Notes: generated from the sequence alone by a model not told the origin. A stretch of 64,000 bases of DNA from a virus (IMGVR_UViG_3300013137_000011:1-64000), one strand, 5' to 3'; positions 4,763 through 41,482 are shown, counted from the first letter of the stretch. Numbers and translations are program-made.

Positions 4763-4791
4763 TTGACAAGGTAGGTCGTATACATTATAAT
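4763..4791 (+). promoter_or_regulatory. Consensus sigma70-type promoter
   Basis: TTGACA at 4763-4768 and TATAAT at 4786-4791 are both perfect consensus hexamers with an ideal 17-base spacer. Transcription should start near 4798, giving a very short leader before the AGGAGG and ATG of the PcfJ-like gene at 4813. It implies recognition by the host housekeeping RNA polymerase. Confidence 0.85.
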
Positions 4792-4812: not shown

Positions 4813-6750
4813 ATGTACTTAGAATATATAGTTGAGGACGGGCTTCGGGTTGGAGTAAAAATCAATATGTTCAAGAATGAACAGGAAGCACGAAAAAAAT
4901 CACATCCAACATCCGATGATCAAGCATTTATTCTTTCAAAATATCAAAAATGGCATGACGGGTCACTATACAGTATGTCATTTAGATATGACAATGGAAA
5001 AATCGAATATGAACTTATAGATATATTATTGAGCATATCTAAATATGAATCAAAAATAAATATGATCTTTCAGATTCTTCCAAAAAATATAGTAGATGGA
5101 ATACATCCATTTACAAGTCTAAATAAAAATAAACAGAAAAAGGGCGGTATACCGAAGTTTGTAATGAGTCAGATGTTAGAATCGGCAGAACATGTAGCAT
5201 TTAATATCATTTATAATGACATGATCGATTCATACAAAAAGGCGAAGAATCCAATGCAAATCCATACCAACGTATCCATTGCTTTCAGGAACAAGGCTCT
5301 AAGAATAATTAATGGAATGATCAATAATATCATTTCTGATATTGGAGATAAATACTCAAGAATCAAACAATCAAGGAGATTCAACCCTAATCGAAGAAAA
5401 TTGGTATATGATCTTTTCTATAAAGATATAAAGTTTGAGCAGTTGACTGATTCATGTCCATATCTGTTATTTTATATGACAGATATTTATATGACAGATA
5501 ATGGTATGCAGGATGTAAACTTCGTTAATGAAAAACTCGAAACACTTTCATCTGATATATTGTCTGGGAAAAGATTGAAATTGATTCTTGATTCTTATGG
5601 AATTCCAAGATTTGTGTCTAAAATCCATAATCCCCAAATGGCTTGGATTATGTATAAAGCCTTGCAAGGACAAGGTAGTAAAATCATAAGAGGTTCAATC
5701 GAAAATCATAAGGGATTTGTTCCAGAAAAAAATAAACGTAAGTATCTCAGATCATTGGTTATGTTAAGAGATTTCATAAATGGTAATGGAGTATTTTATA
5801 ATGGAGATGAACAAAAATATTTAGAAAATATGTATGAATGGATAGGAAATATAATTATTACATATTATATTTCTGGATCCTCAGATGGAATACAAATGAT
5901 TCCTAAAGAAAATAATAATCATTCATCATGCATGATACTACCAAATGACGCCAGATTCTTCAGCAAACTAGAAAATATGAAAGATTGGATAAAGTGTTGC
6001 CATAAAGCAAACGTCTTTGAGATAAATGGAAATATCGGATTAAGAAGACGAGAAGTAATGGAAATTGGATGCTTAACTGCTAGATTCAATAAAGACATGA
6101 GTTTTATGACGGCAGTAAGACTATCTAACGATTGGCACCATAATATCATAAATCTTACGTATACTATAGATAAAGATCCAATTAACTTTCCAGAACCCTG
6201 GCTCCCTGCTGATACGTTCAGAACACAAAGATTTCGAAATATTGATATCAATACGAATGATATCAGAACAGAAGACGCAGATCCAATAATAACAGAATAT
6301 GCAATAATACCAATTGAAACATCTCTAGACTTAATAGAAGAAGGAAAAGGGATGCATCATTGTGTTGGAACATACATTGATACTGTGAATAATGGTAAAT
6401 CATACATCTATTCAATACGAAAAATAGATGATGAGTCTAGAGTTGCTACTCTTGAGTTAAGAAAACGCAAAAGTATATATAGTGAAGTAGAAAAAAAGAT
6501 AGTAGAGATACCAGAAACAATTTCTATTTCTCAGTTGCGTGGGATTTGTAATGAAGCGATTAACAAAGATATAGAAATTCAAATACAAAATTGGATTTCT
6601 AAATGGGATAAAAAACAAAAGGAGGAAAAGGACAATGCCAACGAAGGAAAGGATTGCGAAGATGAAGGAAAAGGGATTGAAGAAAATGGAGGTGGATACG
6701 AAGAAGAAGAAATCAACGAAGAAGGAAGATGCGACGCCGTTGGAGCGTAA
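4813..6750 (+). CDS. PcfJ-like protein
   Basis: A 645-residue protein with the PcfJ signature near its C-terminus: GKGMHHCVGTYIDTVNNGKS (about 510-529) followed by YIYSIR and ATLELR strands. PcfJ domains were named from conjugative plasmids and also occur in phages; their biochemical role is not established, though the conserved HHCVG core looks catalytic or metal-binding. The N-terminal 400 residues are not recognised. The last 45 residues are a Glu/Gly/Asp-rich low-complexity tail that is overprinted by the next gene, which begins 116 bases before this stop. Transcribed from the consensus promoter immediately upstream; start follows AGGAGG. Confidence 0.85.
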   Translation: MYLEYIVEDGLRVGVKINMFKNEQEARKKSHPTSDDQAFILSKYQKWHDGSLYSMSFRYDNGKIEYELIDILLSISKYESKINMIFQILPKNIVDGIHPFTSLNKNKQKKGGIPKFVMSQMLESAEHVAFNIIYNDMIDSYKKAKNPMQIHTNVSIAFRNKALRIINGMINNIISDIGDKYSRIKQSRRFNPNRRKLVYDLFYKDIKFEQLTDSCPYLLFYMTDIYMTDNGMQDVNFVNEKLETLSSDILSGKRLKLILDSYGIPRFVSKIHNPQMAWIMYKALQGQGSKIIRGSIENHKGFVPEKNKRKYLRSLVMLRDFINGNGVFYNGDEQKYLENMYEWIGNIIITYYISGSSDGIQMIPKENNNHSSCMILPNDARFFSKLENMKDWIKCCHKANVFEINGNIGLRRREVMEIGCLTARFNKDMSFMTAVRLSNDWHHNIINLTYTIDKDPINFPEPWLPADTFRTQRFRNIDINTNDIRTEDADPIITEYAIIPIETSLDLIEEGKGMHHCVGTYIDTVNNGKSYIYSIRKIDDESRVATLELRKRKSIYSEVEKKIVEIPETISISQLRGICNEAINKDIEIQIQNWISKWDKKQKEEKDNANEGKDCEDEGKGIEENGGGYEEEEINEEGRCDAVGA

Positions 6751-6928
6751 GTACTACTTTGTTTCATGGCTTGCAGGTATGTCTCCTGGTCAGAGCGTGA
6801 TGGATTCTAATCCTCTTTTGAGGAATGAATTCATCTCTGGACAGCTAAAGTTGAATTTTATGTGCGAAATCGGAAAGGAGGTATATGATGCTTGGGATGT
6901 ATATGATTCTTTGATAGATAGTATCTAA
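6635..6928 (+). CDS. Hypothetical protein with basic N-terminus, overlapping PcfJ-like gene
   Basis: ATG 6635 has AAAAGGAGG upstream. The first 35 residues are extremely Lys-rich (KKKKSTKK), the alternate-frame reading of the Glu-rich tail of the PcfJ-like gene; the remaining 60 residues (YYFVSWLAGMSPGQSVMD and onward) look like a small globular domain. The 116-base overlap in a different frame is unusually long for this genome. A basic tail plus small domain could bind nucleic acid, but that is inference. Confidence 0.7.
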   Translation: MPTKERIAKMKEKGLKKMEVDTKKKKSTKKEDATPLERKYYFVSWLAGMSPGQSVMDSNPLLRNEFISGQLKLNFMCEIGKEVYDAWDVYDSLIDSI

Positions 6929-6940
6929 CTATCACCAATT

Positions 6941-7041
6941 TCTCACAGTTAGAATCGGGAGACTATAGCGAACATCGCTAATATTAAGCATTAAAAATCT
7001 ATTAAAGTCTCATCGGGGGGTGGGGATGAGGCACTGTGAGA
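6941..7041 (+). promoter_or_regulatory. Structured leader with competing helices over a start codon
   Basis: TCTCACAG (6941-6948) pairs with CTGTGAGA (7034-7041) to close a multi-branch element. Inside, GAGACT (6959-6964) can pair with AGTCTC (7006-7011), enclosing the hairpin AGCG-AACAT-CGCT. CTCATC (7009-7014) can pair with GATGAG (7025-7030) around a GGGGGGTGGG loop; that helix contains the ATG at 7026 and traps its G-rich binding site. Because 7009-7011 belongs to both helices, they exclude each other, the logic of a riboswitch or translational operator. No known riboswitch class was recognised. Confidence 0.5.
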
Positions 7042-7154
7042 TATGGAAAATTAAAACAAAATACAGTATAGTAAGTGTATATGATTTAAAAACCAACAAA
7101 CTGAATGAATCCTGGTTCAAAATGGGTAAGAATAGTCAATGCGACTTTATTTAA
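7026..7154 (+). CDS. Small hypothetical protein, 42 aa
   Basis: An ATG lying in the 3' arm of the leader hairpin opens 42 codons reading MRHCEIWKIK and VYDLKTNKLNESWFKMG, which looks like normal protein sequence with a beta-strand pattern. The only binding site is the GGGGGGTGGGG tract directly upstream, itself held in the hairpin loop. It lies in the otherwise gene-free stretch 6929-7221. Could be a regulated peptide or a chance frame. Confidence 0.4.
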   Translation: MRHCEIWKIKTKYSIVSVYDLKTNKLNESWFKMGKNSQCDFI

Positions 7155-7183
7155 AATTTTTGAACTAAGTATGTAGATTAAAT

Positions 7184-7207
7184 CCAGAATGGAGGGTGGG
7201 ATTCTGG
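7184..7207 (+). other. Hairpin with G-rich loop before tRNA genes
   Basis: CCAGAAT (7184-7190) and ATTCTGG (7201-7207) form a perfect 7-pair stem around the loop GGAGGGTGGG. The loop is one base different from that of the leader hairpin at 7015-7024. It sits 15 bases before tRNA-Gln and may be a protein-binding or RNA-processing site. Confidence 0.5.
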
Positions 7208-7221
7208 AGCCAGGAAAAGAT

Positions 7222-7293
7222 AGATCCGTAGCCAAGTGGTAAGGCAGGAGACTTTGGATCTCCCATTCGTAGGTTCAAATCCTACCGGATCTG
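7222..7293 (+). tRNA. tRNA-Gln (anticodon TTG)
   Basis: A full 72-base cloverleaf. Acceptor AGATCCG pairs with CGGATCT; D stem GCC/GGC; anticodon stem GGAGA/TCTCC around loop CTTTGGA, giving anticodon TTG, which reads CAA; T arm GTAGG-TTCAAAT-CCTAC. Discriminator base is G and CCA is not encoded. CAA codons are frequent in this AT-rich genome, so the tRNA fits translation support. Confidence 0.93.
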
Positions 7294-7301
7294 ATAAACT
7301 A

Positions 7302-7384
7302 GCCGAGATGATGGAATGGCAGACATTTCTGACTTAAAATCAGATGGGAGATATCCCGTGCGGGTTCAAGTCCCGCTCTCGGCA
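7302..7384 (+). tRNA. tRNA-Leu (anticodon TAA)
   Basis: A class II tRNA of 83 bases. Acceptor GCCGAGA pairs with TCTCGGC; anticodon stem TCTGA/TCAGA around CTTAAAA gives anticodon TAA (reads TTA); a long variable arm TGGGAGATATCCCG is typical of tRNA-Leu; T arm GCGGG-TTCAAGT-CCCGC. CCA is not encoded. It lies 8 bases after tRNA-Gln, so the two are probably processed from one transcript. Confidence 0.93.
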
Positions 7385-7408
7385 AGATAAAATCAAAAGG
7401 AGAATAAA

Positions 7409-7792
7409 ATGAAAATAGAAATCAAAGATCCAGAAAAGTGCAAGATTACAGATTACTCTCTATGCGAAACCGACGGTGGAATAAACGGTTTTCCAATATT
7501 TTACTTAAATATATCCTCAGAGTTTAAGAGGTTATGTTTATCTTGCTCTGGTCATTCTGGAGATGGAGAAGAATCGTCATTCTTTATTTCAGAGTGCGAA
7601 AATGACAATCATGATCTTTGTTCTGAAATAGTTGTAACAAAAACGGATCTTAGTCGTAGTTATAATGATAGTTGTAATATTATTTGTTCGTATGAGTTCA
7701 TGACGATAGATTCAAGATATGGAATTGAAGTATATTTAATTCCTATCGTATGGCCTATCAAACATCTTGAAAAAATTGGAGGAAAAGAATAA
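7409..7792 (+). CDS. Hypothetical protein, 127 aa
   Basis: Follows AAAAGGAG. A Cys-containing soluble protein with LCLSCSGH at about residues 47-54 and further Cys at ECEND, LCSE and CNIICS, but no clean zinc-ribbon spacing. Predicted as mainly beta. Its stop overlaps the next start by one base (TAATG), so it is co-translated with the 69 aa gene and lies in the same unit as the MoxR-type ATPase. Family not recognised. Confidence 0.7.
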   Translation: MKIEIKDPEKCKITDYSLCETDGGINGFPIFYLNISSEFKRLCLSCSGHSGDGEESSFFISECENDNHDLCSEIVVTKTDLSRSYNDSCNIICSYEFMTIDSRYGIEVYLIPIVWPIKHLEKIGGKE

Positions 7793-8001
7793 TGAATATA
7801 AAAATAAATCCAAAAGCAAAAGCAGCATTAACAAAACTAATCAGAAATAATATGGACAAATTGTTTCTTTTTGGATTTGGAAGAACATATTCATTGAAAT
7901 GTAATATTTCAGTATTATCTGAAAAAATACTGGAATATATCATTAAAAAAGCAGATGAAGAAGGAATTAGTTTCTTCTTTACTAATAAAAACTGGAGGTA
8001 G
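7792..8001 (+). CDS. Hypothetical protein, 69 aa
   Basis: Start ATG overlaps the upstream stop; GGAGG lies 11 bases before. A small basic protein: MNIKINPKAKAALTKLIRNN, then a hydrophobic LFLFGFGRTYSLKCNISVL segment and a helical end. It may be a small alpha/beta domain. Placed between the 127 aa protein and the MoxR-type ATPase with no gaps. Function unknown. Confidence 0.65.
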   Translation: MNIKINPKAKAALTKLIRNNMDKLFLFGFGRTYSLKCNISVLSEKILEYIIKKADEEGISFFFTNKNWR

Positions 8002-8009
8002 ATGTAATA

Positions 8010-9086
8010 ATGGAAATGTTAGAAGTTGATGGAGTTGGCGATGTTAATCCGGTAGTAGAAGTTAAACCTTTCGAGATGCAAGAAAAAAAGCATATGATTC
8101 CAATTGAGGATTGGATCATGGATTATGCTAGACAAGCCGGAAATACCGTACATGAATCTGGAATAGAAATGATTGACCTTGCAGGTACAGGTTATATCAT
8201 GAACAACAGGATTAAGAGGGCTCTTAATCAGGCGATTAAACTGAAGAAGGGCCTTTTTCTTAGGGGGAAGCCTGGATGTGGAAAAACTGAAGTAGCAAAT
8301 TCACTCTGGAAAGCCTGTGGAGGACGTATCGAAATTGATAGTTTCGGTAATGAAATTCATCACGGACCAAAGTTTGTAAAGATTATTTGTAATCCTGACA
8401 TTGATTCTGAGAAGAAACTTGTAGGAGAATGGGATATCCAGAACCAGATGGTTCAATTAGAAATCATGAGAAGCATGATTAATGTAGGGGTTTCAGTAGA
8501 GGGAATAAAAAGAGAACTTTACTCAGAGAGGTTTCTCATTAAACGTGGCATAATAGAGGCTCTGACGGCTCCAGAAGGAGCGATCCTGCTCATAGACGAA
8601 GCAGACAAGTCCAGGAGGGTAGAGTCCTTCCTATTGGAGTTTTTGGACAAGTGGCGGGTGAGCATCCCACAGATGGGTGAGATAAAAGCATTGAAGATTC
8701 CTATGGTTATTATCACGGCAAATAGAGCCCGTGAATTTTCTGAAGAATTTCACAGAAGATGTGTTTTTGTTCCTATCAATTATCCAGATATTGACACTGA
8801 GATTAAGATTTTACACTCAAGATTGCCTAATATCAGAAAGAAAATTGCTGAACAAATATCAAGTATTATGAGTATTATTAGAAATAGGGAAGTTGACTTC
8901 AGATATACTCCTGGTACTAGTTCAGCATTAGATTGGGCTCAAATTCTTATAGAGATGAATATCGAGAGTATCAAAAGAGAGCAGTTGATTCTCGATGCTC
9001 AAATTATCATGAAGCACGAGGATGATATGACGATGCTTGAAAACATAAGTTATGATATTCAAAATAAAGTTGGACTGGAGGATTAG
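8010..9086 (+). CDS. MoxR-type AAA+ ATPase
   Basis: A 358-residue AAA+ protein of the MoxR/AAA_5 type. Walker A GKPGCGKT lies near residue 86, Walker B LLIDEADKS near 193, sensor I IITANR near 235 and the arginine finger in FHRRC near 247; the insert with FLLEFLDKWRVSIPQ after Walker B is typical of MoxR. MoxR ATPases act as chaperones that remodel protein complexes, usually with a von Willebrand factor A partner encoded nearby. Such a partner, with an intact MIDAS motif, lies at 9762. The pairing in a phage replication region is unusual. A patch of clearly higher GC covers about 8555-8700. Start follows GGAGG. Confidence 0.88.
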   Translation: MEMLEVDGVGDVNPVVEVKPFEMQEKKHMIPIEDWIMDYARQAGNTVHESGIEMIDLAGTGYIMNNRIKRALNQAIKLKKGLFLRGKPGCGKTEVANSLWKACGGRIEIDSFGNEIHHGPKFVKIICNPDIDSEKKLVGEWDIQNQMVQLEIMRSMINVGVSVEGIKRELYSERFLIKRGIIEALTAPEGAILLIDEADKSRRVESFLLEFLDKWRVSIPQMGEIKALKIPMVIITANRAREFSEEFHRRCVFVPINYPDIDTEIKILHSRLPNIRKKIAEQISSIMSIIRNREVDFRYTPGTSSALDWAQILIEMNIESIKREQLILDAQIIMKHEDDMTMLENISYDIQNKVGLED

Positions 9087-9088
9087 TC

Positions 9089-9343
9089 ATGTTTATATCG
9101 GTAAATAAAATAGAAATACCTGATTCGTGTCCAAAAAATTGTATGGGATTAGATCCAAAAACTAGACATATACACATATCACAAGGAGGGTTGTGTCATC
9201 GCTGTCCAATATTCTGTTGTAAAAAAAATATCGAATATGATTTCTGTCTACTAAAACCTGAAGGATATAGAGAAGATTGGGCTATAGTATGGAGAGATTG
9301 GTTTCTTGGAGATATGAAAACATATCCAGAACTAAAATTTTAG
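9089..9343 (+). CDS. Cys-rich small protein, 84 aa
   Basis: Follows CTGGAGG, 2 bases after the MoxR-type gene. Cys residues are arranged as SCPKNCMG (about 13-20), LCHRCPIFCCKK (about 35-46) and YDFC near 53, so a two-metal or Fe-S site is possible. The C-terminal third is aromatic (DWAIVWRDWFLGD). Its position between ATPase and VWA gene suggests it belongs to that module, but no family is recognised. Confidence 0.7.
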   Translation: MFISVNKIEIPDSCPKNCMGLDPKTRHIHISQGGLCHRCPIFCCKKNIEYDFCLLKPEGYREDWAIVWRDWFLGDMKTYPELKF

Positions 9344-9355
9344 GAGATGATATAA

Positions 9356-9550
9356 ATGAAAGAGAAAGTTTCACAACATATAACTAAAGTATTTGGGAAC
9401 ACTCTTGTTTTCTGGAGATATCCAGACACCAATGGAGATTTTGTAAGAATAGAACTATTAAATTTTATTTCAGGAGATAGTAATGGAAGAATTACACTAT
9501 CTTTTGATGAATTCAAAAATATGGTTAAAGAAATATTGGAGGAAGATTAG
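9356..9550 (+). CDS. Hypothetical protein, 64 aa
   Basis: Follows AGGAGATGATATAA. A small acidic protein with alternating beta pattern (NTLVFWRYPDTNGDFVRIELL) and a C-terminal helix SFDEFKNMVKEILEED. No Cys cluster, no membrane segment. Lies between MoxR-type and VWA genes. Function unknown. Confidence 0.65.
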   Translation: MKEKVSQHITKVFGNTLVFWRYPDTNGDFVRIELLNFISGDSNGRITLSFDEFKNMVKEILEED

Positions 9551-9551
9551 T

Positions 9552-9740
9552 ATGAATATAGTTATTCGACACTATACTAGAGTTATTCTTGATAGAAAAT
9601 TAATTATAACTCCTGTGATAGTGACAATAAATCCTATTGTATGGATTGCAATAAAAATAAATGCAATTCCTGTAAATAAGGTATATGTATGGGATAAAAG
9701 ATACCACCACTACTATAGCAATATGGGATGGGCATCTTAA
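9552..9740 (+). CDS. Doubtful small gene, 62 aa
   Basis: ATG 9552 follows TTGGAGGAAG, a good binding site inside the previous gene's end. The frame reads hydrophobic sequence (LIITPVIVTINPIVWIAIK) that could be one membrane segment, then YHHYYSNMGWAS. However another frame across 9614-9679 reads CDSDNKSYCMDCNKNKCNSC, a zinc-finger-like pattern, without a start codon and after stop codons. The site may be a decayed zinc-ribbon gene or a real membrane peptide. Confidence 0.4.
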   Translation: MNIVIRHYTRVILDRKLIITPVIVTINPIVWIAIKINAIPVNKVYVWDKRYHHYYSNMGWAS

Positions 9741-9761
9741 TTTAATAAATAGCGAGGATGT

Positions 9762-11486
9762 ATGCTTTATAATATCAATGATTATTTTGATAAACTTCAG
9801 ATATCTGGTATTGACATTCCAATTGGAATGAGGCTTGAGGCTTTCAAAGCAATAGATATTATGGGTTCTTTTTGTTTTGAAAAAGATACTTCAGCAGAAG
9901 TTTGGAAAAATCTTATGGATGATATATTTTCTGCTATTGCAATTCGTGAGAAAGACGAACTTATAGCAAAAATGATATTCATAAAGCACTTTAGAGTAGG
10001 AGACTACTCTAATTTCATTTCTAAGAATGAAAATAAAATAATCTATTCTATGCGAAAAAACAGCAAAAAAGAAGAATCTATTTCGCATGAAACAATAGAT
10101 AATAGTAGAGTTGTTTTAAATTTTGGTAATATAAAAACAGAAGCATCTGATAAAATTGAAGATTCTTATCATCAAATAGAAGAAGATAAAAAAGATAATG
10201 ATGATCAAAATACTCAACTTAAACAAAATGCAAACGATAACTATAGTATTTTCGATGAAATAGATGAAATGATAGAAGATGAGGAGTTTGATTTTGGTAA
10301 AAATGACGACGATGCAATAGCAGATGATGACGAAATCGAAGCATTTAATAACGGAGAAGTAGAAGATTTAGACGATATAGAAAAATTTGCAAATAGCATA
10401 TCTGGCTTCAAAGAAGCACTTGAAAAACTCTCTGAAAGTGGATATGATATTGACACTAAAGAGTCTGCAGATGAAATATCAAATGAAATATATAATATTG
10501 CAGCATCTATAAGAGTTGAGTTTTACGGTAAAAAGAATAAAAAAAGGCGTGAAGAGTTATTTGATTGTTTGAATATAGTTAAAAGACATAAAATAGATGA
10601 GGAAAAAATAGAAAGAGAAATCATAGGAGAAACTATAAAAGAGATAAACAAAAAAGAACTTAAACAAGAACTAAATAATGGAAATAACAACGATCCTGGA
10701 ATACAATATATAAGTATATCCAGAATACCTGAAAGCAAATTGATAATTGAGATAGAAAGAATTGCCAATGAGATTGTAACAGATAGATCAAGAGATATTT
10801 TTGTTGCTGAGTCTGGTACTGAAATAGATTTGTTTGATACAGTCACCGAAAGCTTGTCAAATTTGAGAGGTGTAATATCAAACATTTATTTTTATAAGAA
10901 AGATAAGGGAAAAGCAAGAATTCTTGCAATATGTGACTTATCTGGAAGCATGAGGAGATATATTAATATATCACTGAATCTAATGCTAAATATGAGAAAA
11001 GTACTAGATGACGTTCAAATAACGGCATTTAGCAGTAATGATACAATATTAACAGAAAACGTATTTAAAAACCAAGATATATCATGCAAAAATTGGAAAA
11101 AAGTATTCCAATCAATATTCAATATAGTATCCATAAGGGGTACTTCATTAGTCACTCATCTTGAGAACGTAAAAAATTGGGCTGAAAGTGGTAGATTAAA
11201 TATAGATGAAGAGACTATTGTTCTTCTAATTTCTGATATGTTAGCAACAGATGTAAATATGTATTACGAAGAACAATACTATTGCAAAGAACAATACTAT
11301 TACAAAGAAATTGCATCAAAAATAGTTCCGATCAAAAATATGTGTAAAGAAATAATAATACTGTCACCAAATGAATATAACCAAAACTTCAATAATCTTG
11401 AAAATTATAGAAAAAAACTTGGCATAAGATATGCTACAATTGACACAATCAACCAATTAAGAACAGCAATTTCATCAATAGTTTAG
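9762..11486 (+). CDS. VWA-domain protein (CoxE-like), partner of MoxR ATPase
   Basis: A 574-residue protein. The C-terminal 200 residues form a von Willebrand factor A domain with the metal-ion-dependent adhesion motif DLSGSM near residue 392, the Thr in RGTSL near 465 and LLISDML near 490, as in the CoxE/ViaA group that works with MoxR ATPases. Residues about 100-230 are a long acidic, probably disordered, region (DEIDEMIEDEEFDFG). The N-terminal 90 residues look helical. The known pairs load metals or remodel client proteins; the client here is unknown. Start follows AGCGAGG. An 18-base partial repeat (GAACAATACTATT-CAAAGAA) occurs near 11270-11300. Confidence 0.85.
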   Translation: MLYNINDYFDKLQISGIDIPIGMRLEAFKAIDIMGSFCFEKDTSAEVWKNLMDDIFSAIAIREKDELIAKMIFIKHFRVGDYSNFISKNENKIIYSMRKNSKKEESISHETIDNSRVVLNFGNIKTEASDKIEDSYHQIEEDKKDNDDQNTQLKQNANDNYSIFDEIDEMIEDEEFDFGKNDDDAIADDDEIEAFNNGEVEDLDDIEKFANSISGFKEALEKLSESGYDIDTKESADEISNEIYNIAASIRVEFYGKKNKKRREELFDCLNIVKRHKIDEEKIEREIIGETIKEINKKELKQELNNGNNNDPGIQYISISRIPESKLIIEIERIANEIVTDRSRDIFVAESGTEIDLFDTVTESLSNLRGVISNIYFYKKDKGKARILAICDLSGSMRRYINISLNLMLNMRKVLDDVQITAFSSNDTILTENVFKNQDISCKNWKKVFQSIFNIVSIRGTSLVTHLENVKNWAESGRLNIDEETIVLLISDMLATDVNMYYEEQYYCKEQYYYKEIASKIVPIKNMCKEIIILSPNEYNQNFNNLENYRKKLGIRYATIDTINQLRTAISSIV

Positions 11487-11509
11487 CAGCATTTTTTAAA
11501 GAGGTGTTT

Positions 11510-11647
11510 ATGATTATCCCTATATATAATATATACTATAAACATGAATATTATATATATAATATTAAGAATAATATACCTGATTATTCTATTAGCTATA
11601 GTATAGATATATATCCTATTAGTTATGGTATAAATATATATATATAA
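11510..11647 (+). CDS. Tyr/Ile-rich peptide in an AT tract, 45 aa
   Basis: ATG 11510 follows AAAGAGGTG. The 45 codons use almost only A and T, giving a peptide with about 11 Tyr and 14 Ile (NIYYKHEYYIYNIKNN). The binding site supports translation, but composition is so biased that the region may simply be a simple-sequence AT tract. Nothing else occupies 11487-11652. Confidence 0.35.
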   Translation: MIIPIYNIYYKHEYYIYNIKNNIPDYSISYSIDIYPISYGINIYI

Positions 11648-11652
11648 AAAAT

Positions 11653-11919
11653 ATGAATAATAAACATGAAATAGAAGTGATTAATAGTATTAATACAGTA
11701 TTAGTAGATAATATAGGATTAAGAAGTATTAATTTATATTATATATACATGATAAAGTATTATAATTATGTCATGTATATTAATATAATAAGCGATAATC
11801 CAAAACCATCAAACAAAAAAAGTAATGATGAAATAGCAGATTTGTATGGAAGTGACAAAATCTTCGATCTTTTTGTTGAAAATGATGAAATATTTAATTT
11901 ATTGGATGAGGAGGGCTAA
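11653..11919 (+). CDS. Hypothetical protein, 88 aa
   Basis: Starts in the same AT-rich stretch without a clear binding site. The first half is Asn/Ile/Tyr-rich (LYYIYMIKYYNYVMYINII), the second half is acidic and normal looking (DEIADLYGSDKIFDLFVEND). The real start might lie elsewhere in the frame. Ends 3 bases before the next ATG and carries its GAGGAGG site. Function unknown. Confidence 0.45.
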   Translation: MNNKHEIEVINSINTVLVDNIGLRSINLYYIYMIKYYNYVMYINIISDNPKPSNKKSNDEIADLYGSDKIFDLFVENDEIFNLLDEEG

Positions 11920-11922
11920 ATA

Positions 11923-12408
11923 ATGAAGGTTTTTTCTAGTACTTTTAGAGTTTCTGTGGATGCAGATTATGATGGTCTTGATATTCTACAGATGATTTCT
12001 GAGAAAAGAAAAGTTTTCAATGAGCTTCAGAAAAAATTATCAGAAAATAATGAAACTTCATATCATGGTGGACGTATTCAAAGATTATGCCTTGAGTGTA
12101 AATCTCCTATGTTTTCTGGATTTTGGAAATTTGAAGATAAAATTAGCGAAAATTCAAAGTGTTCAGTAAGATGTGGATATAATGAATTCATAGTTTATGA
12201 CTTGATTTCTGCTCAAGTAGAATATAAATCATGGTTTGATGATGAAGAAAGTAAGCAGTACGAAGAAACTATTGATAAACAAAAAGAATTAAACTATGGA
12301 ATAAGTAATAAAATAATGGAACATTGCATAGAAGTAGAAAAGGTTAATCTAAATGAAGAAGATAAAAACTTTATTGAGGACTGTGATCTTTCAGATTTAT
12401 TTGATTAG
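11923..12408 (+). CDS. Hypothetical protein with one zinc site, 161 aa
   Basis: Follows GAGGAGG. The central part has LCLECKSPMF (about 57-66) and KCSVRCGY (about 86-93), a CxxC plus CxxxC arrangement likely to bind one zinc. The N-terminus is a helix-rich segment and the C-terminus is strongly acidic (NEEDKNFIEDCDLSDLFD). It sits directly before the RuvB-like ATPase, 8 bases apart, so it may be an accessory factor. Family not recognised. Confidence 0.7.
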   Translation: MKVFSSTFRVSVDADYDGLDILQMISEKRKVFNELQKKLSENNETSYHGGRIQRLCLECKSPMFSGFWKFEDKISENSKCSVRCGYNEFIVYDLISAQVEYKSWFDDEESKQYEETIDKQKELNYGISNKIMEHCIEVEKVNLNEEDKNFIEDCDLSDLFD

Positions 12409-12416
12409 GAGTTTAG

Positions 12417-13322
12417 ATGGACATATTAAGACCTTCAGATTGGGATACATTTATAGGTAATTCAAATAATGTTGAACTTGTAAAAGAATCTCTTGAGGCT
12501 GCGCTGATTAAGATTGGACATATGCCTCATGTATTATTATCAGGTCCACCAGGAACAGGAAAAACGACAATAGCAAACATAATAAGAAATAAACTAGATA
12601 AAATTATGTTTCTAAATTTTCAGGATACTTCTGGATCTCTTCTTGACAATGTAAAATCAATAGAAGAAATAGTAGAGGAATTTAAAGATAATAATGGAGT
12701 CAACTATAATCTTGTTTTTATTGATGAGGTTGACATAATAGAAAAGAAAGCAGAAAAAACTCTACTAACTATTCTTGAAGATTTTAAATTCAAAGATAGA
12801 GTTGTTCCAAAATTTACTATGATCGCTGCTTGCAACGATCCTGGGAAAATTAGTAGTGCATTTATCCGAAGATTTCCGTTGAGACTGTCAATGGATGAAT
12901 ATTCGGATCAAGAAATGTACTTACTAATAAGAATGAATATAATCAAACTAGAAATCGAAATGGACGAAAATACAGTATTATTTATTCTTTCAAGAAGCAG
13001 AAATAATCCATCATTTGTAAACAATATATTGACTACACTCAAGGATCATAAAATCGCAAAATCTGGTATTCCTAATGACGGAATAATTTCACTAGAAGAT
13101 GTAAAATTAATCTGTGATAGGTTAGGAATTGACAGTTTAGGCTTGTTGAAGGACGAAAGGATAATCATTGACTATTTGAAATTCGTTTCCCGTCCAATTG
13201 GGGCCAAAATTATCTGTTCTGCCTGCCAATTAGAGTTGGACACTTATTTGAATGTTTATGAACCATACCTAATTCGTAAGAGATTAATAGCAGTTACCAA
13301 TAAGGGAAGGGTAATCGTCTAG
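12417..13322 (+). CDS. RuvB-like Holliday junction ATPase
   Basis: A 301-residue AAA+ ATPase. Walker A GPPGTGKT is at 43-50, Walker B VFIDEVD near 100-106, sensor I Asn near 140 and the RRF arginine finger at 151-153. The last 60 residues match the RuvB winged helix: a predicted WH domain ending VYEPYLIRKRLI and TNKGR, the pattern of bacterial RuvB (VYEPYLIQ-GfL-RTPRGR). RuvB drives branch migration with RuvA and RuvC. A RuvC-like resolvase is at 22217, but no RuvA is seen in the window. Length is slightly below the usual 330. An alternative is a clamp-loader subunit, less likely given the C-terminus. Start follows TTAGGAG. Confidence 0.8.
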   Translation: MDILRPSDWDTFIGNSNNVELVKESLEAALIKIGHMPHVLLSGPPGTGKTTIANIIRNKLDKIMFLNFQDTSGSLLDNVKSIEEIVEEFKDNNGVNYNLVFIDEVDIIEKKAEKTLLTILEDFKFKDRVVPKFTMIAACNDPGKISSAFIRRFPLRLSMDEYSDQEMYLLIRMNIIKLEIEMDENTVLFILSRSRNNPSFVNNILTTLKDHKIAKSGIPNDGIISLEDVKLICDRLGIDSLGLLKDERIIIDYLKFVSRPIGAKIICSACQLELDTYLNVYEPYLIRKRLIAVTNKGRVIV

Positions 13323-13325
13323 AAT

Positions 13326-14117
13326 ATGCAAACGGATAATCATAAAAAGTTTGGGTACTTGACATTCAAAACCAGGTGTAGTAGAATAGCAAGTACAGAA
13401 GGTTGTGGTAAATTTTGCAGTTTTATTCGAAACCATAGTCACTACCCTTCGAAAGAAAAAAACAGATGCAGGAACTTAGAGATTTCAAATATGCCAAAGT
13501 CAAGACTAAAGATCATAACTAATCAGTATGGCTCATGGGGAGAATATGCTGATTTCTTCGGCATTTCTTTGAGTACATACAAAAAATTAATCAATGATGA
13601 AATTATCCCAAGACCTCCAAAAGATCAGTATGGAAAAATCATAAAGAAAGATAACGCATATATAAAACTGGTTCTGTCAGCAATCAAGGTCAAGAAACTT
13701 GTTAATGGCAGGCATCGGATAGTTTTAGCAAAAGGGCCTAGAATTGTATCGGCGGCTTTTTATGCAAAACTAGTCAATGTCTGCCCTTCTACTTATCATA
13801 GGTGGATTCACGAGATAAATCTTGCTACCGGACAAACCTTTGTAAATCCCCCTCCCAAAAATGAAAAAGGAAGAATTATTTTTGACGAGGGATATGTAAC
13901 TTATCTGATGTCAATAGTATCTCCAAAAGGTCCAGAGAAGATTAAAGTCAAAAAAGAGAAGAGAGTTGATACTTCTAGGCTATTGACTCATGATGCAGAT
14001 CAATATCAACAAGAAATGGACAAAAAGGACAAAGAAAACGAAGAGAAAACAGCAAAAGATTCAATCCACAAAAAAGGTGGAAAGGTCTTTTACAAGGGTG
14101 TTCCAAGGGAGAAGTGA
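13326..14117 (+). CDS. Putative DNA-binding protein with HTH-like repeats
   Basis: 263 residues from ATG 13326, or 207 from ATG 13493. The first start has only a poor, distant site (GGGAAGGG); a consensus promoter at 13359-13387 lies inside the first 60 codons, so the shorter form is plausible. The body has two similar segments: SWGEYADFFGISLSTYKKLIN and, 90 residues later, SAAFYAKLVNVCPSTYHRWIH, each followed by a PP-K-G-I/F stretch. These look like duplicated helix-turn-helix or MerR-like recognition units. The C-terminus is Lys/Glu-rich. Likely a transcription regulator or DNA organiser; the family is not certain. Confidence 0.65.
   Translation: MQTDNHKKFGYLTFKTRCSRIASTEGCGKFCSFIRNHSHYPSKEKNRCRNLEISNMPKSRLKIITNQYGSWGEYADFFGISLSTYKKLINDEIIPRPPKDQYGKIIKKDNAYIKLVLSAIKVKKLVNGRHRIVLAKGPRIVSAAFYAKLVNVCPSTYHRWIHEINLATGQTFVNPPPKNEKGRIIFDEGYVTYLMSIVSPKGPEKIKVKKEKRVDTSRLLTHDADQYQQEMDKKDKENEEKTAKDSIHKKGGKVFYKGVPREK
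13359..13387 (+). promoter_or_regulatory. Sigma70-type promoter inside a gene start
   Basis: TTGACA (13359-13364) and TAGAAT (13382-13387) are separated by 17 bases. Transcription would begin near 13394, giving a 100-base leader before ATG 13493. The leader contains TTCGAA at about 13427 and again near 13448. Either the upstream ATG of this gene is not used, or the promoter gives a second, shorter product. Confidence 0.6.
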
Positions 14118-14134
14118 AAAATTTCCCCCTAAAA

Positions 14135-14188
14135 CCTGTCAATTTTACCACAAAAGGGGTTGACAGGGCACAAGAAACGTGCTATAAT
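14135..14188 (+). promoter_or_regulatory. Consensus promoter with overlapping inverted repeat
   Basis: TTGACA (14160-14165) and TATAAT (14183-14188) are perfect with a 17-base spacer. CCTGTCAA (14135-14142) is the inverted copy of TTGACAGG (14160-14167), so an 8-base palindromic arm covers the -35 box. This is the layout of a repressor operator. It drives the unusual gene at 14236. Confidence 0.85.
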
Positions 14189-14235
14189 AGGCTTAGGTTC
14201 CAAAGAATAACCAAATAATGAAAGGGGTAAGAAAA

Positions 14236-15036
14236 ATGCAGGCTGTAATCGAGAAGGATAGCAAGGGTAAGTTTACGGGGATTAATTACGATGAGTCGCT
14301 CGATGGATCGCTCGTCGAGCAGGGAAAAGCGATGAATCTCAAGGATAAGGTCGCTATGATTCTTCACTTCATGGCGACTCGTGATGCAGAGGAGAAGGCT
14401 TCGGATACTCCTAAGATTGATGTCGCTGCTACCAGGACTGAGATTAAGGAACTGAAGAAGCAGGTATCCGCTGTGTCGATGATCGATGAAAAGTTCATCG
14501 CAACTATTCCTGATGAAAATCTCAGAAACGAGCTGATGAAGAATCGGGATGATCTCGCAAAGGTCTGTGAGATGAAGCAGACCAGAATTAACGAACTTGA
14601 GAAGAGTATCGAGGATCAAAAAGAGGAAAACAAATCCAAGGAGCCTACCAATGATGATCTTCTGATGTGGGGGGTTATCCGTGGTCTTGGGGCAAAGGTC
14701 GTGAAACCCAAGTCTCATAAGGAAGATAAGCCCAAAGGTGAAAAGACGGATTCCGGTAATAGTGGTCGCTTCAATGGAAAGAAGTTCTCTGAGTTTGTAA
14801 AGGATAAGATTGCTCAGGGAAAGACCATTCTGATGAAGGGAATCGATGATAGGAAATGGGAGTACACTCCCGAGATTGCAAAGACCAAGAAGATGTCACA
14901 GGCAGTACAGGATCCCGCTCTTGGTGGATATGGATCCCCTAGAGATGCCTCCAATCTCTTCATTAAGGTTGTCGGAGAAGATCCCGTTGTCGTAGAAAAT
15001 CCTTCCGCCGCAGAACCCGTTCCTGCGACGGCGTAA
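14236..15036 (+). CDS. Unknown coiled-coil protein, probably highly expressed, 266 aa
   Basis: ATG 14236 follows AAAGGGG; an in-frame ATG at 14218 has no binding site. Codon use is clearly richer in G and C than in neighbours and resembles that of the major structural genes, which with the consensus promoter implies high expression. Residues about 75-150 form a charged coiled coil (TRTEIKELKKQVSAV; NELEKSIEDQKEENKSK); residues about 175-245 form a small domain with KKFSEFVKDKIAQGKTIL; the end is Ala/Pro/Val-rich. It stands alone between promoter and terminator hairpin. No family recognised. An abundant early DNA- or host-protein-binding factor is one possibility. Confidence 0.8.
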   Translation: MQAVIEKDSKGKFTGINYDESLDGSLVEQGKAMNLKDKVAMILHFMATRDAEEKASDTPKIDVAATRTEIKELKKQVSAVSMIDEKFIATIPDENLRNELMKNRDDLAKVCEMKQTRINELEKSIEDQKEENKSKEPTNDDLLMWGVIRGLGAKVVKPKSHKEDKPKGEKTDSGNSGRFNGKKFSEFVKDKIAQGKTILMKGIDDRKWEYTPEIAKTKKMSQAVQDPALGGYGSPRDASNLFIKVVGEDPVVVENPSAAEPVPATA

Positions 15037-22013: not shown

Positions 22014-22220
22014 ATGGTGTATGATTCAGGTGCAAATACTGGAGATCCTCCTGTAGATGATGGTAGAATCTATAGTTATAGTTATATTGATAAAGATATA
22101 AATACTAAATCCTTCAGGTTGACTAGTACTGGAAAATCGGTTAAGTGTAAATACTGCAAAACATATTACAAACCAAACAATTATTATAAATGTCCTAATT
22201 GTGGAGCAAGTGAACAATGA
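22014..22220 (+). CDS. Zinc-ribbon protein, 68 aa
   Basis: Follows AGAGAGGAAC. The N-terminal 40 residues are polar; the C-terminus has CKYCKTYY and KCPNCGA (about 45-65), a classic CxxC-x12-CxxC zinc ribbon. The stop overlaps the start of the RuvC-like gene (ATGA overlap), so the two are co-translated. Confidence 0.7.
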   Translation: MVYDSGANTGDPPVDDGRIYSYSYIDKDINTKSFRLTSTGKSVKCKYCKTYYKPNNYYKCPNCGASEQ

Positions 22221-22726
22221 ATTTTATGGGATTTGATATTGGATGGAATCAAATAGCATTTTCAGTAATAGATGAAAATGAAAAACTAATCTATTATAAT
22301 ATGCATTGTTACGAAGAACCAATACTTCATAATATTTTTGAAAAATGCTTAAATCTTATAGATAGATTTAATCCTACAGTAGTAGGAGTGGAGTGTCCAT
22401 TTGGAAGAAATCCAAAAGCTCTAATCATGCTTTCAGAAGTTAAAGGATCGATAAGATTAGCATGTCAGGAAAGAGAACGAATCTGTGTAGACATGACTCC
22501 AAATCAAGCAAGAGCCATGACTGGAAAAATTGCAAATTCAGATAAAGATAGAAAGAAGAAAGTTATAGAAAATACAAATAGGTACTACAAAGAAAAGAAT
22601 AAAAACTTTCCGTGGTTTGATAAATTAGATACAGAAAACGAACATATAGCGGATTCGGTAAATGTAGCATTGTATACTCTTAACATAGCAAAAAAAGAAT
22701 TAGGAAGTATATTCAAATGTCAATAA
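22217..22726 (+). CDS. RuvC-like Holliday junction resolvase
   Basis: 169 residues with the RuvC/RNase H fold signature: GFDIGWNQIAFSVID at the start (catalytic Asp7), VGVECPFG (Glu59) and HIADSVNVAL near the end (Asp146, with the His-x-x-Asp pair usual for RuvC). Size matches bacterial RuvC (about 170). It should cut four-way DNA junctions made during recombination or remove branches before packaging. The genome also encodes a RuvB-like ATPase at 12417. Start overlaps the previous stop by 4 bases. Confidence 0.78.
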   Translation: MNFMGFDIGWNQIAFSVIDENEKLIYYNMHCYEEPILHNIFEKCLNLIDRFNPTVVGVECPFGRNPKALIMLSEVKGSIRLACQERERICVDMTPNQARAMTGKIANSDKDRKKKVIENTNRYYKEKNKNFPWFDKLDTENEHIADSVNVALYTLNIAKKELGSIFKCQ

Positions 22727-39116: not shown

Positions 39117-39896
39117 CTATCTTCTCTCATCTATTAAATCAGAACTAGGATCTGGTTTAACTGATTTTATAACATAACAAAATGCATACTTAGGACCAAC
39201 TAATCCTCCTAATGTCCTGAGAAGATTTATAACTTCCTCATCATTATCAGTAAGATGTCTAGCACCATCTAATCCAGGAACACCCCAATAAGGCATAAGA
39301 TGAATTCCTTTAGCCGAATCTATATAAAAACCTGTATTAAATAACATCTCTTTAGTCTCATCATAGGTTAATTCTTTGGTATGATCTTGGCAACATTTAA
39401 AATCTCTATATCCAAGAGCCCTATTCATAATAAGATGAAGACTATTTCTATTTGGAGAAGTCAAAAGAAATATCCCATTAGGTTTAAGAACTCTAAATGC
39501 TTCAGATATCATTTTTTCTGGATTCCCAACATGTTCTAATACTTCTTTAGCAACAACTATATCAAATGTATTATCTAGAAAAATTAGATTACAAGCATCC
39601 ATTTGCATAAACTCTGCTTCAGGATATTTTTTTTCAAACTTATTCCTAGCAATTGACATAGCAACTTCAGAAATATCAGTACAAACAATACTTTTACATC
39701 CTTTATATGAATGAAGAGATCCACATCCATCACCAGATCCAAGATCAAGTATGTGTTTTCCTTCAAATGGAACGCACATTTTTCTTGCTGTAGAATCAAT
39801 ATCTATTCCACGAACTCTATCCCATAAAAATTCTTGATTGTATGGTTTACCATTAGAGTATAAATCATTCATCATATCCCTACTATTACGTTCCAT
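39117..39896 (-). CDS. SAM-dependent methyltransferase (class I)
   Basis: 259 residues from ATG 39896, which overlaps the previous stop (TAATG) and has GAGGAGG at good spacing; ATG 39905 is too near the site. HILDLGSGDG (about 48-57) is AdoMet motif I, CTDISEVAM follows, then FDIVVAKEVLEHVGNP and VLKPNGIFLLTSPN, the Methyltransf_11 layout. It is the C-terminal partner of glycosyltransferases in this cluster, so a sugar or lipid methylation is likely. Confidence 0.82.
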   Translation of the reverse strand: MERNSRDMMNDLYSNGKPYNQEFLWDRVRGIDIDSTARKMCVPFEGKHILDLGSGDGCGSLHSYKGCKSIVCTDISEVAMSIARNKFEKKYPEAEFMQMDACNLIFLDNTFDIVVAKEVLEHVGNPEKMISEAFRVLKPNGIFLLTSPNRNSLHLIMNRALGYRDFKCCQDHTKELTYDETKEMLFNTGFYIDSAKGIHLMPYWGVPGLDGARHLTDNDEEVINLLRTLGGLVGPKYAFCYVIKSVKPDPSSDLIDERR

Positions 39897-40597
39897 TATA
39901 ACCATCCCTCCTCTGTAATAAGATAATTTTTCATAGCATCATTATTAAACGGAATAACAAATTTCTCTTGCCCTGGTGTACCTCCCCACTTTTTAATATA
40001 ATATCTTTGAAATATATCTGCAAAGATATTCATATTAAGAGTATTTCTCATTGGATCGGATGCAATAGTTTGGCTTCCTTCATGGTGAATTGGAAGTTTT
40101 TCTGTATATATTGCATGATATCCAGCAAGTTTGGCTCTATATATCTGATCGTTATCAGAGAAGTAGTTTGGGAGGTTTGGATCTACAAGTCCAATCTTTT
40201 TTATAGCACTAATACGCCATGCTATTACATACCATCTATCTGAATAGATCCACCAATTAGGATCCTCAAATGCTTTTTCTACACGTTCCATAAATTTCTT
40301 TAAAACATCGTCGCCAAGAAAGAATATATCAGAGTGTGTCCAAAACATAACATCATCTTCATTGTCAATACACTCTTTATAATACAGATTAAAGTTATCT
40401 GTAGATGATATATGCACTTTTGGTCTAATAATCTTTGGATTGAATCCAAATATTTTTTCTGGTTCTTTAAGATCAAAATTATCAGACACATCTGTTATAA
40501 CCAGTTTGTCATAAACCTCATGAACATTATAACTCTTAACTGCTTTTATAAGTAAATCTAATCTACTTTTGTGCATTATTTTGAATGACCATTTCAT
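39896..40597 (-). CDS. Glycosyltransferase (GT-A fold)
   Basis: 233 residues. FWTHSDIFFLGDDV (about 84-97) has the D-x-D-like acidic pair at the sugar-nucleotide site, and SDNDQIYRAKLAGYHAIY near 145-162 with LPIHHEGS following is a typical GT2-type acceptor side. The N-terminus HKSRLDLLIKAVKSYN is the first nucleotide-binding helix. Likely transfers a sugar to a fibre, capsid or host surface component. Lies directly before the methyltransferase. Confidence 0.7.
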   Translation of the reverse strand: MKWSFKIMHKSRLDLLIKAVKSYNVHEVYDKLVITDVSDNFDLKEPEKIFGFNPKIIRPKVHISSTDNFNLYYKECIDNEDDVMFWTHSDIFFLGDDVLKKFMERVEKAFEDPNWWIYSDRWYVIAWRISAIKKIGLVDPNLPNYFSDNDQIYRAKLAGYHAIYTEKLPIHHEGSQTIASDPMRNTLNMNIFADIFQRYYIKKWGGTPGQEKFVIPFNNDAMKNYLITEEGWL

Positions 40598-40603
40598 AAT
40601 TAA

Positions 40604-41482
40604 TTACCTCCAAGACCTATTAGTAAACATTGATGGAAGATTTCCATAAAAAGTAGCAGTACCACTATCAACACTATGAACTGCATTTGTATAATGATAT
40701 CCAATTGTAGGAAGCCAAAATAGTTGTGATGTTAGTGCTATAACATAACTATTTCCACAATCCTCCTGGGTTCCATCTGGCCCATCTGCCCTATCAACTC
40801 CGATACTCCATCTAGTTGGACCAGGATTACCCCCTGTTGTTTGAACAAAAGCAGTACAATCATGTGTATTTTCAGTAATTCCTACTACAAACTCATGTTT
40901 CCAATTAGCATTACCACCATTTGCTGCTGCTGGAGTCGAAGAATTATATGTCCATGATGCAGTAGTATCTTGTTGAGATGATATAACTAATATTTTATTA
41001 TAGTAATTATGCACAAATCTTTTCGCATTAGTGTTTTGAAATTTACTTGCAGCATCAACATGAACAGTACCAATATATCTTCTGGTTGTTGCTCCAGATT
41101 TAGATAGTACTCCATCCTGATAAACTAATGCTGTTGCTCTTGTAGCAGTACTAGCCCATGCAAGTTTTTCTAACGTAGGAGTTCCATTATCATCATAACA
41201 AAATATATCATGAGGTGTATTAGCAGTAAATCCAGAATTAGATATTGACAGTTCGGTAAAATGCCTAAGATGCCAAAAAGTTCCATCATATAAAGATATA
41301 AAATCTCCTATATATGGTGTAAAATATAGAGAAGTTTTGTCTGATTCATCGGCAGATGTAACAACAGGAGAACCACTAGTTAGTGTCAATCTTCCATTAA
41401 CAGTACTATTAGTGACAATAGAAAGGACTTCTTCTTCAGTAGCCATCTCTGGATTAAGAGATTGTTTTCCAGGTTTTCCCAT
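40604..41482 (-). CDS. Tail fibre/receptor-binding-like protein, 292 aa
   Basis: Beta-rich: GRLTLTSGSPVVTSAD, SLYFTPYIGDFISLYDGT, HDIFCYDDNGTPTLEKLAW, RATALVYQDGVLSKSGATTR and RYIGTVHVD. The chain of phrases TLYxTPYxGxxIxLYDG-W and TRRYxGTxxxD is common to phage and prophage fibre or adsorption proteins. The C-terminal half is also beta and ends SMFTNRSWR. Embedded between glycosyltransferase genes. Confidence 0.75.
   Translation of the reverse strand: MGKPGKQSLNPEMATEEEVLSIVTNSTVNGRLTLTSGSPVVTSADESDKTSLYFTPYIGDFISLYDGTFWHLRHFTELSISNSGFTANTPHDIFCYDDNGTPTLEKLAWASTATRATALVYQDGVLSKSGATTRRYIGTVHVDAASKFQNTNAKRFVHNYYNKILVISSQQDTTASWTYNSSTPAAANGGNANWKHEFVVGITENTHDCTAFVQTTGGNPGPTRWSIGVDRADGPDGTQEDCGNSYVIALTSQLFWLPTIGYHYTNAVHSVDSGTATFYGNLPSMFTNRSWR

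Follow-up and report, generated by a model that had tools for sequence, protein, structure and literature searches.

A MoxR-class ATPase and VWA protein of the CoxD/CoxE branch in a divergent tailed phage: a probable remodelling chaperone

In Afipia (Oligotropha) carboxidovorans, the AAA+ ATPase CoxD and the VWA protein CoxE serve the [CuSMoO2] site of CO dehydrogenase, and the same two-part logic is seen in NorQ/NorD and CbbQ/CbbO, which serve cNOR and Rubisco, respectively. Viruses also encode such pairs, among them the CobS/CobT pairs of phages (PMC8651126), the MoxR-vWA genes of group 2.2 jumbo phages, which carry a fused metallopeptidase (PMC7824862), pairs in haloviruses (PMC7911831), and p618/p892 of the archaeal virus ATV, which act in tail development (PMC4124505). 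Here we describe a pair of genes on the plus strand of IMGVR_UViG_3300013137_000011:1-64000 (the window, meaning the whole 64,000-nucleotide stretch analysed, which covers the initial 64 kb of a 78.8 kb IMG/VR virus record; G+C 32%). The genes encode a MoxR-class ATPase of the CoxD/MadB type (8010–9086) and a CoxE-type VWA protein (9762–11486). Like the CobS/CobT and jumbo phage pairs, they are phage-borne genes for a AAA+ protein and a VWA protein with a MIDAS; unlike them, they fall into another subfamily and matched no CobS/CobT model. AAA+/VWA pairs in phages are already known, and what is new here is a rare CoxDE-type phage member; the literature searched, which lacks most subscription journals, yielded no earlier description of such a pair in phages. 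Probably the pair gives the phage a remodelling chaperone of its own, of the AAA+/VWA type and the CoxD/CoxE (NorQD-like; MadB/MadC) class.

The ATPase is 358 amino acids long with an N-terminal extension of about 60 residues. It matched the Pfam models AAA_5 (E 2.5e-7) and AAA (E 6.9e-7), and its best NCBIfam match was MadB_ATPase (E 2.7e-38). Conservation was read from an alignment of 13 homologues. In the Walker A motif GKPGCGKT (residues 86–93; 8265–8288; plus strand, as are all window features given below unless stated otherwise), G86, G89, G91, K92 and T93 were invariant, as were the Walker B motif LLIDE (residues 193–197; 8586–8600) and the arginine pair R249-R250 (8754–8759). Sensor-1 residue N238 was conserved. 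By analogy with the MoxR family, R249-R250 is likely to be the arginine finger, and by alignment Walker A, Walker B, sensor 1 and arginine finger all appear intact. The AlphaFold2 model of the ATPase was of good confidence (pLDDT 85), and Foldseek searches with it ranked AfCbbQ2 and NorQ first. Compared with authentic CoxD of A. carboxidovorans, the ATPase scored 156 bits at 34% identity, the highest among all rows in a small tree.

The VWA protein (574 amino acids) matched VWA_CoxE (E 3.6e-12). Its model is laid out as N-terminal helices (approximately residues 1–76), a low-confidence acidic stretch (approximately 78–311) and a C-terminal VWA domain. N-terminal helices have been described for CoxE-type proteins (PMC7159879), and the model has such helices. 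In an alignment of 11 homologues the DxSxS residues D392, S394 and S396 (10935–10949), the threonine T461 (11142–11144) and the aspartate D492 (11235–11237) were invariant; read from the alignment, the MIDAS is complete. Foldseek searches with the VWA model gave few hits under 1e-3, NorD VWA chains among them. Neither the window VWA protein nor its counterpart in the virus record G003 had a strong match to a PHROGs v4 family, and no metallopeptidase domain was matched in the window protein. The families, the intact MIDAS and the coordinates given in the initial annotation, with a MoxR ATPase at 8010 and a CoxE-like VWA protein at 9762, were confirmed.

The association of the two genes was assessed in 80 bacterial and archaeal loci fetched with the ATPase aligned to one bacterial relative; the VWA protein was not used in the search. 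When all open reading frames (ORFs) of these loci were compared with the window VWA protein by phmmer, the gene directly downstream of the ATPase was matched repeatedly (best 4e-9). With cleaner ATPase and VWA profiles, and among the 77 loci with enough room to judge adjacency, a VWA homologue adjoined the ATPase in 71 and lay 499 bp away in one. The remaining five had no VWA homologue at E 1e-10, two of which showed one with a looser profile. The earlier description of a recognised bacterial pair therefore holds, since a VWA relative adjoins the ATPase in nearly all of these loci. In the window the two genes lie 0.68 kb apart on the same strand. A plasmid search brought the authentic coxD and coxE of A. 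carboxidovorans pHCG3, and CoxE scored E 1e-53 with a profile that includes the window VWA protein. Because the ATPase aligns with CoxD at 156 bits and the VWA profile recovers CoxE, the pair is assigned by sequence to the CoxD/CoxE branch. This branch is MadB/MadC (NF047784/NF047783) in NCBIfam, and the bacterial and viral relatives match those models; a search of the available literature for the name MadB/MadC found no paper.

Like CoxD/CoxE, the phage pair combines a CoxD-related ATPase with a VWA protein of the same Pfam family and a helical N-terminal part. Unlike the coxDE locus, it is not flanked by genes for CO dehydrogenase, XdhC or CoxG, its genes are split by three small genes, and the ATPase bears the extension described above. 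Since MoCoBD_1 is absent from the record, the pair was not classed as a functional CoxDE. The best solved-structure matches are NorQ/NorD and CbbQ/CbbO, at 15–17% identity, and these serve clients of their own.

Both genes were present in three further IMG/VR virus records. In G006 (244 kb), which has a terminase match, the ATPase and VWA genes overlap by 22 bases; in G003 (101 kb) they are 3 kb apart on the same strand; and in G002 (224 kb) they are about 90 kb apart, and near-identical fragments each carry one or other gene of the pair. As no terminase match was found in G001–G003, the viral status of those records comes from IMG/VR alone. A wider VWA scan brought no additional virus groups, and scans of IMG/VR with single-protein patterns (ATPase, VWA protein, terminase, portal candidate) gave no relatives. 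The condition named as refuting in the initial annotation, a pair that is not kept together, does not hold at the distance of the cellular loci and these three virus records; no close relative of the phage was found for a nearer comparison. The sole match in the phage collection, 'Acinetobacter phage MD-2021a' (CAKLQF020000010.1 and CAKLQH020000018.1), was not counted as a phage, as it carries bacterial housekeeping genes; the stretch from the former record holds recR, rnd, aroC and trpB and appears to be host DNA under a wrong label.

In the ATPase tree, the proteins of G002 and G003 were each other's nearest relatives, and that of G006 grouped with a Bacillota sequence (support 99/98). A single clade of all viral ATPases was rejected (p 1e-6), and therefore at least two acquisitions by viruses are indicated; from these sequences, viruses probably gained the pair on more than one occasion and kept its two genes together. 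Grouping of the window ATPase, which sits on a long branch, with L005/L008 (p 0.15) or with L092 (p 0.06) was not rejected. L092 (IMGVR_UViG_3300025009_000050), a large virus record, has overlapping MoxR and VWA genes followed by PRTRC-like C, B and A and ThiF genes (7587–14715), a plasmid-type cassette beside a MoxR/VWA pair in a virus. In L095 a MazF-like growth inhibitor gene adjoins the viral VWA gene (8870–9661), and in the short contig L091 a 435 amino acid ORF, IscB-like by eye, lies between the MoxR gene and the start of the VWA gene (1375–2682). Two other virus records, L009 and L010, have a MoxR-like ATPase followed by a protein of about 280 amino acids without a family (7962–9728). 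The latter looked VWA-like by eye, which profile comparison did not bear out (0.7% probability), and it is not recognisable as a VWA protein; these records perhaps represent another type of MoxR operon in viruses.

Judged by its genes, the record is a tailed phage very divergent from known phages. A head protein in its remaining 15 kb matches a PHROG major head family (2e-5). The phage was considered remote from known ones because neither its terminase candidate nor its head protein had a tblastn match in 50,697 phage records. The genome is split into two arms. The plus-strand arm (about 1–37 kb) encodes a SNF2 helicase, a PcfJ-like protein, two tRNAs, the ATPase/VWA pair and a RuvB-like ATPase, and further a Rad52-like protein, an AEP primase, a beta clamp, DNA methylases, a RuvC-like nuclease and ThyX. 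The minus-strand arm is presumed to be structural from the head gene, a 2446 amino acid ORF and the gene layout. Minus-strand genes at 39117–43500, within this presumed structural arm, include methyltransferase and glycosyltransferase-family genes.

The pair shares its strand with the RuvB-like gene and a gene for a helix-turn-helix (HTH)-like protein and lies beside the Rad52/primase/clamp block, and the opposite strand carries the head gene with the PHROG match and the long block of minus-strand genes. A TTGACA-17-TATAAT sequence matching the consensus at 12 of 12 positions precedes the PcfJ-like gene (4763–4791) and is a possible promoter of the whole unit; the next perfect site is at 14160–14188, and both perfect sites stand just before gene starts. 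In a shuffle control, 13 of 100 shuffles reached the observed four promoter matches with up to one mismatch, so that at this base composition near-perfect sites are not rare by chance. Because of the two perfect promoter-like sites, the transcription unit, as far as sigma-70 consensus matches alone indicate, is likely to span 4813–14117, which is longer than six genes and also covers the two tRNAs, the RuvB-like ATPase (12417–13322; RuvB_N E 1.5e-20, RuvB_C E 9.7e-11) and the HTH-like protein. The RuvC-like nuclease (22217–22726) lies 9 kb beyond the RuvB-like ATPase, and the phage thus has both RuvB- and RuvC-like genes. From its position, the pair is probably expressed with the recombination and replication genes. 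Co-transcription with the PcfJ-like, tRNA, RuvB-like and HTH-like genes, if real, would favour the timing of DNA metabolism and argue against a role in tail assembly.

A scheme for the action of the pair can be proposed from the mechanism of NorQD (PMC9976466, PMC13036017). The ATPase would form a hexameric ring on which the VWA protein docks, with a finger of the VWA domain entering the ring pore as in NorQD. The divalent metal ion of the MIDAS would grip an acidic residue or site on the client protein, and ATP hydrolysis, acting via the VWA linker, would pull or twist the client into a mature or altered state. The linker of NorQD is remodelled (PMC13036017); residues 78–311 of the window VWA protein may occupy the place of that linker and by analogy would have the same role. 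Given the gene position, the most likely client is a complex of the host or a DNA-metabolism protein of the phage that the pair would meet in replication, rather than a tail part. A broader proposal is that several unrelated phages have independently turned a CoxDE-type metal-insertion machine into a dedicated early-infection remodeller of one particular host or phage complex, which would be a function so far undescribed in phages; this we consider a tentative and rather doubtful extension.

Several findings weigh against assigning the pair to this class of remodeller. The ATPase scored 131.8 bits against a MadB equivalog cut-off of 475 bits, the pair being below the cut-offs of both equivalog models, and the VWA protein showed no match to NCBIfam MadC. 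In pairwise phmmer comparison the VWA protein did not match CoxE itself, so that their link is by profile alone. The ATPase branch is very long (3.5 to 4.8 changes per column), and for this reason its function may have drifted. The AlphaFold2 model of the VWA protein was poor overall (pLDDT 59), usable in the C-terminal domain and first N-terminal helices only, residues 78–311 being Asp/Glu-rich and mostly under pLDDT 50. Adjacency of the pair is not essential, because the two genes of G002 are so far apart. Finally, no client was identified when the candidate clients of known systems were sought in the record: neither a molybdenum hydroxylase (MoCoBD_1) nor CobN was found across it.

The genes around the pair form a row on the same strand, with ribosome-binding sites and gaps of mostly a few bases. 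The packed row is headed by a gene for 127 amino acids (7409–7792; ribosome-binding site AAAAGGAG), which is unmatched in phages, and the start of the following 69 amino acid gene (7792–8001; no family) overlaps its stop. Between the ATPase and VWA genes lie an ORF for a Cys-rich protein of 84 amino acids (9089–9343), preceded by a GGAGG site, a gene for 64 amino acids (9356–9550) with a ribosome-binding site, and a gene for 62 amino acids (9552–9740). The last was taken as the shorter start of the mechanical ORF 9483–9740, has a GGAGG site shortly upstream of its ATG and abuts the 64 amino acid gene. In another frame inside it (9611–9679) a Cys-rich string, SCDSDNKSYCMDCNKNKCNSCK, is followed by a stop and has no start of its own; it could reflect a chance occurrence, a frameshift or a fault in the assembly. 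The 84 amino acid protein had no family and no significant phage match, and for none of the row's small genes was a homologue found at any other pair locus, cellular or viral. The six-gene unit proposed initially was accordingly not borne out, and its order was seen in none of the three further virus records.

Four other explanations of the pair were weighed. It could be a virion assembly chaperone for tail building or structural protein processing, a role concluded for ATV p618/p892 (PMC4124505) and proposed for the group 2.2 jumbo phages (PMC7824862); the large minus-strand block with its 2446 amino acid ORF could need such help. ATV also provides a virus-encoded MoxR ATPase with a VWA partner, but the model of p618 was built on RavA (PMC4124505), whereas the window ATPase is nearest to CoxD, CbbQ2 and NorQ and lies with DNA-metabolism genes, in the recombination/replication arm on the strand opposite to and outside the presumed structural block, with its own promoter-like site. 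A virion role is thus considered unlikely. It is improbable that the pair acts in counter-defence or host take-over, whether by unfolding or inhibiting a host immune complex or by interfering with a MoxR/VWA conflict system. Bacterial conflict systems do include couples of MoxR and vWA (PMC7159879), early expression, which is probable for this pair, is usual for such functions, and in one related virus (L095, above) a MazF-like gene adjoins the VWA gene. A PADLOC scan of the pair and its small neighbours, however, found no family above noise, which leaves the counter-defence or host-takeover device suggested in the initial annotation without support; the ATPase and VWA protein match no conflict-system model such as bpMoxR, and no third component was recognised. 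Scans of the pair and of its neighbours found none of the third-component or fused effector domains of the ternary MoxR-vWA systems (VMAP, iSTAND, FtsH, beta-propeller).

The remaining two explanations involve metal. As auxiliary metabolic genes of the CobS/CobT type, the pair would work with host CobN as a cobaltochelatase and yield more cobalamin. Tailed viruses widely carry two-gene cobST clusters (PMC8651126), and a weak, partial match links the ATPase to phrog_249, 'porphyrin biosynthesis' (E 3e-7). Yet no CobS/CobT model of Pfam or NCBIfam was matched, whereas the CoxE and MadB models were; the record is without CobN, and Foldseek prefers CbbQ2, NorQ and NorD, so that this explanation is very improbable. 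Scarcely credible, and somewhat less probable again, is that the pair loads metal into the neighbouring 84 amino acid Cys-rich protein, as had been suggested from the sequence. The gene does sit between the two members of the pair, and CoxDE and NorQD serve metal insertion. However, the clients studied for CoxDE and NorQD are enzymes rather than small proteins rich in Cys (PMC4240915, PMC9976466), and since no small gene has a homologue at other pair loci, the sole tie of this protein to the pair is its location.

The usual assignment of AAA+/VWA pairs in phages is to CobST or to virion chaperones, and the pair described here represents another branch, CoxD/CoxE, the ATPases of which viruses have, from the tree, acquired on at least two occasions. 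If remodellers of this kind are repeatedly found in phages alongside the genes for DNA metabolism, infected cells would contain a client that has gone unrecognised, and if this is true, Walker B trap mutants would make such a client directly findable.

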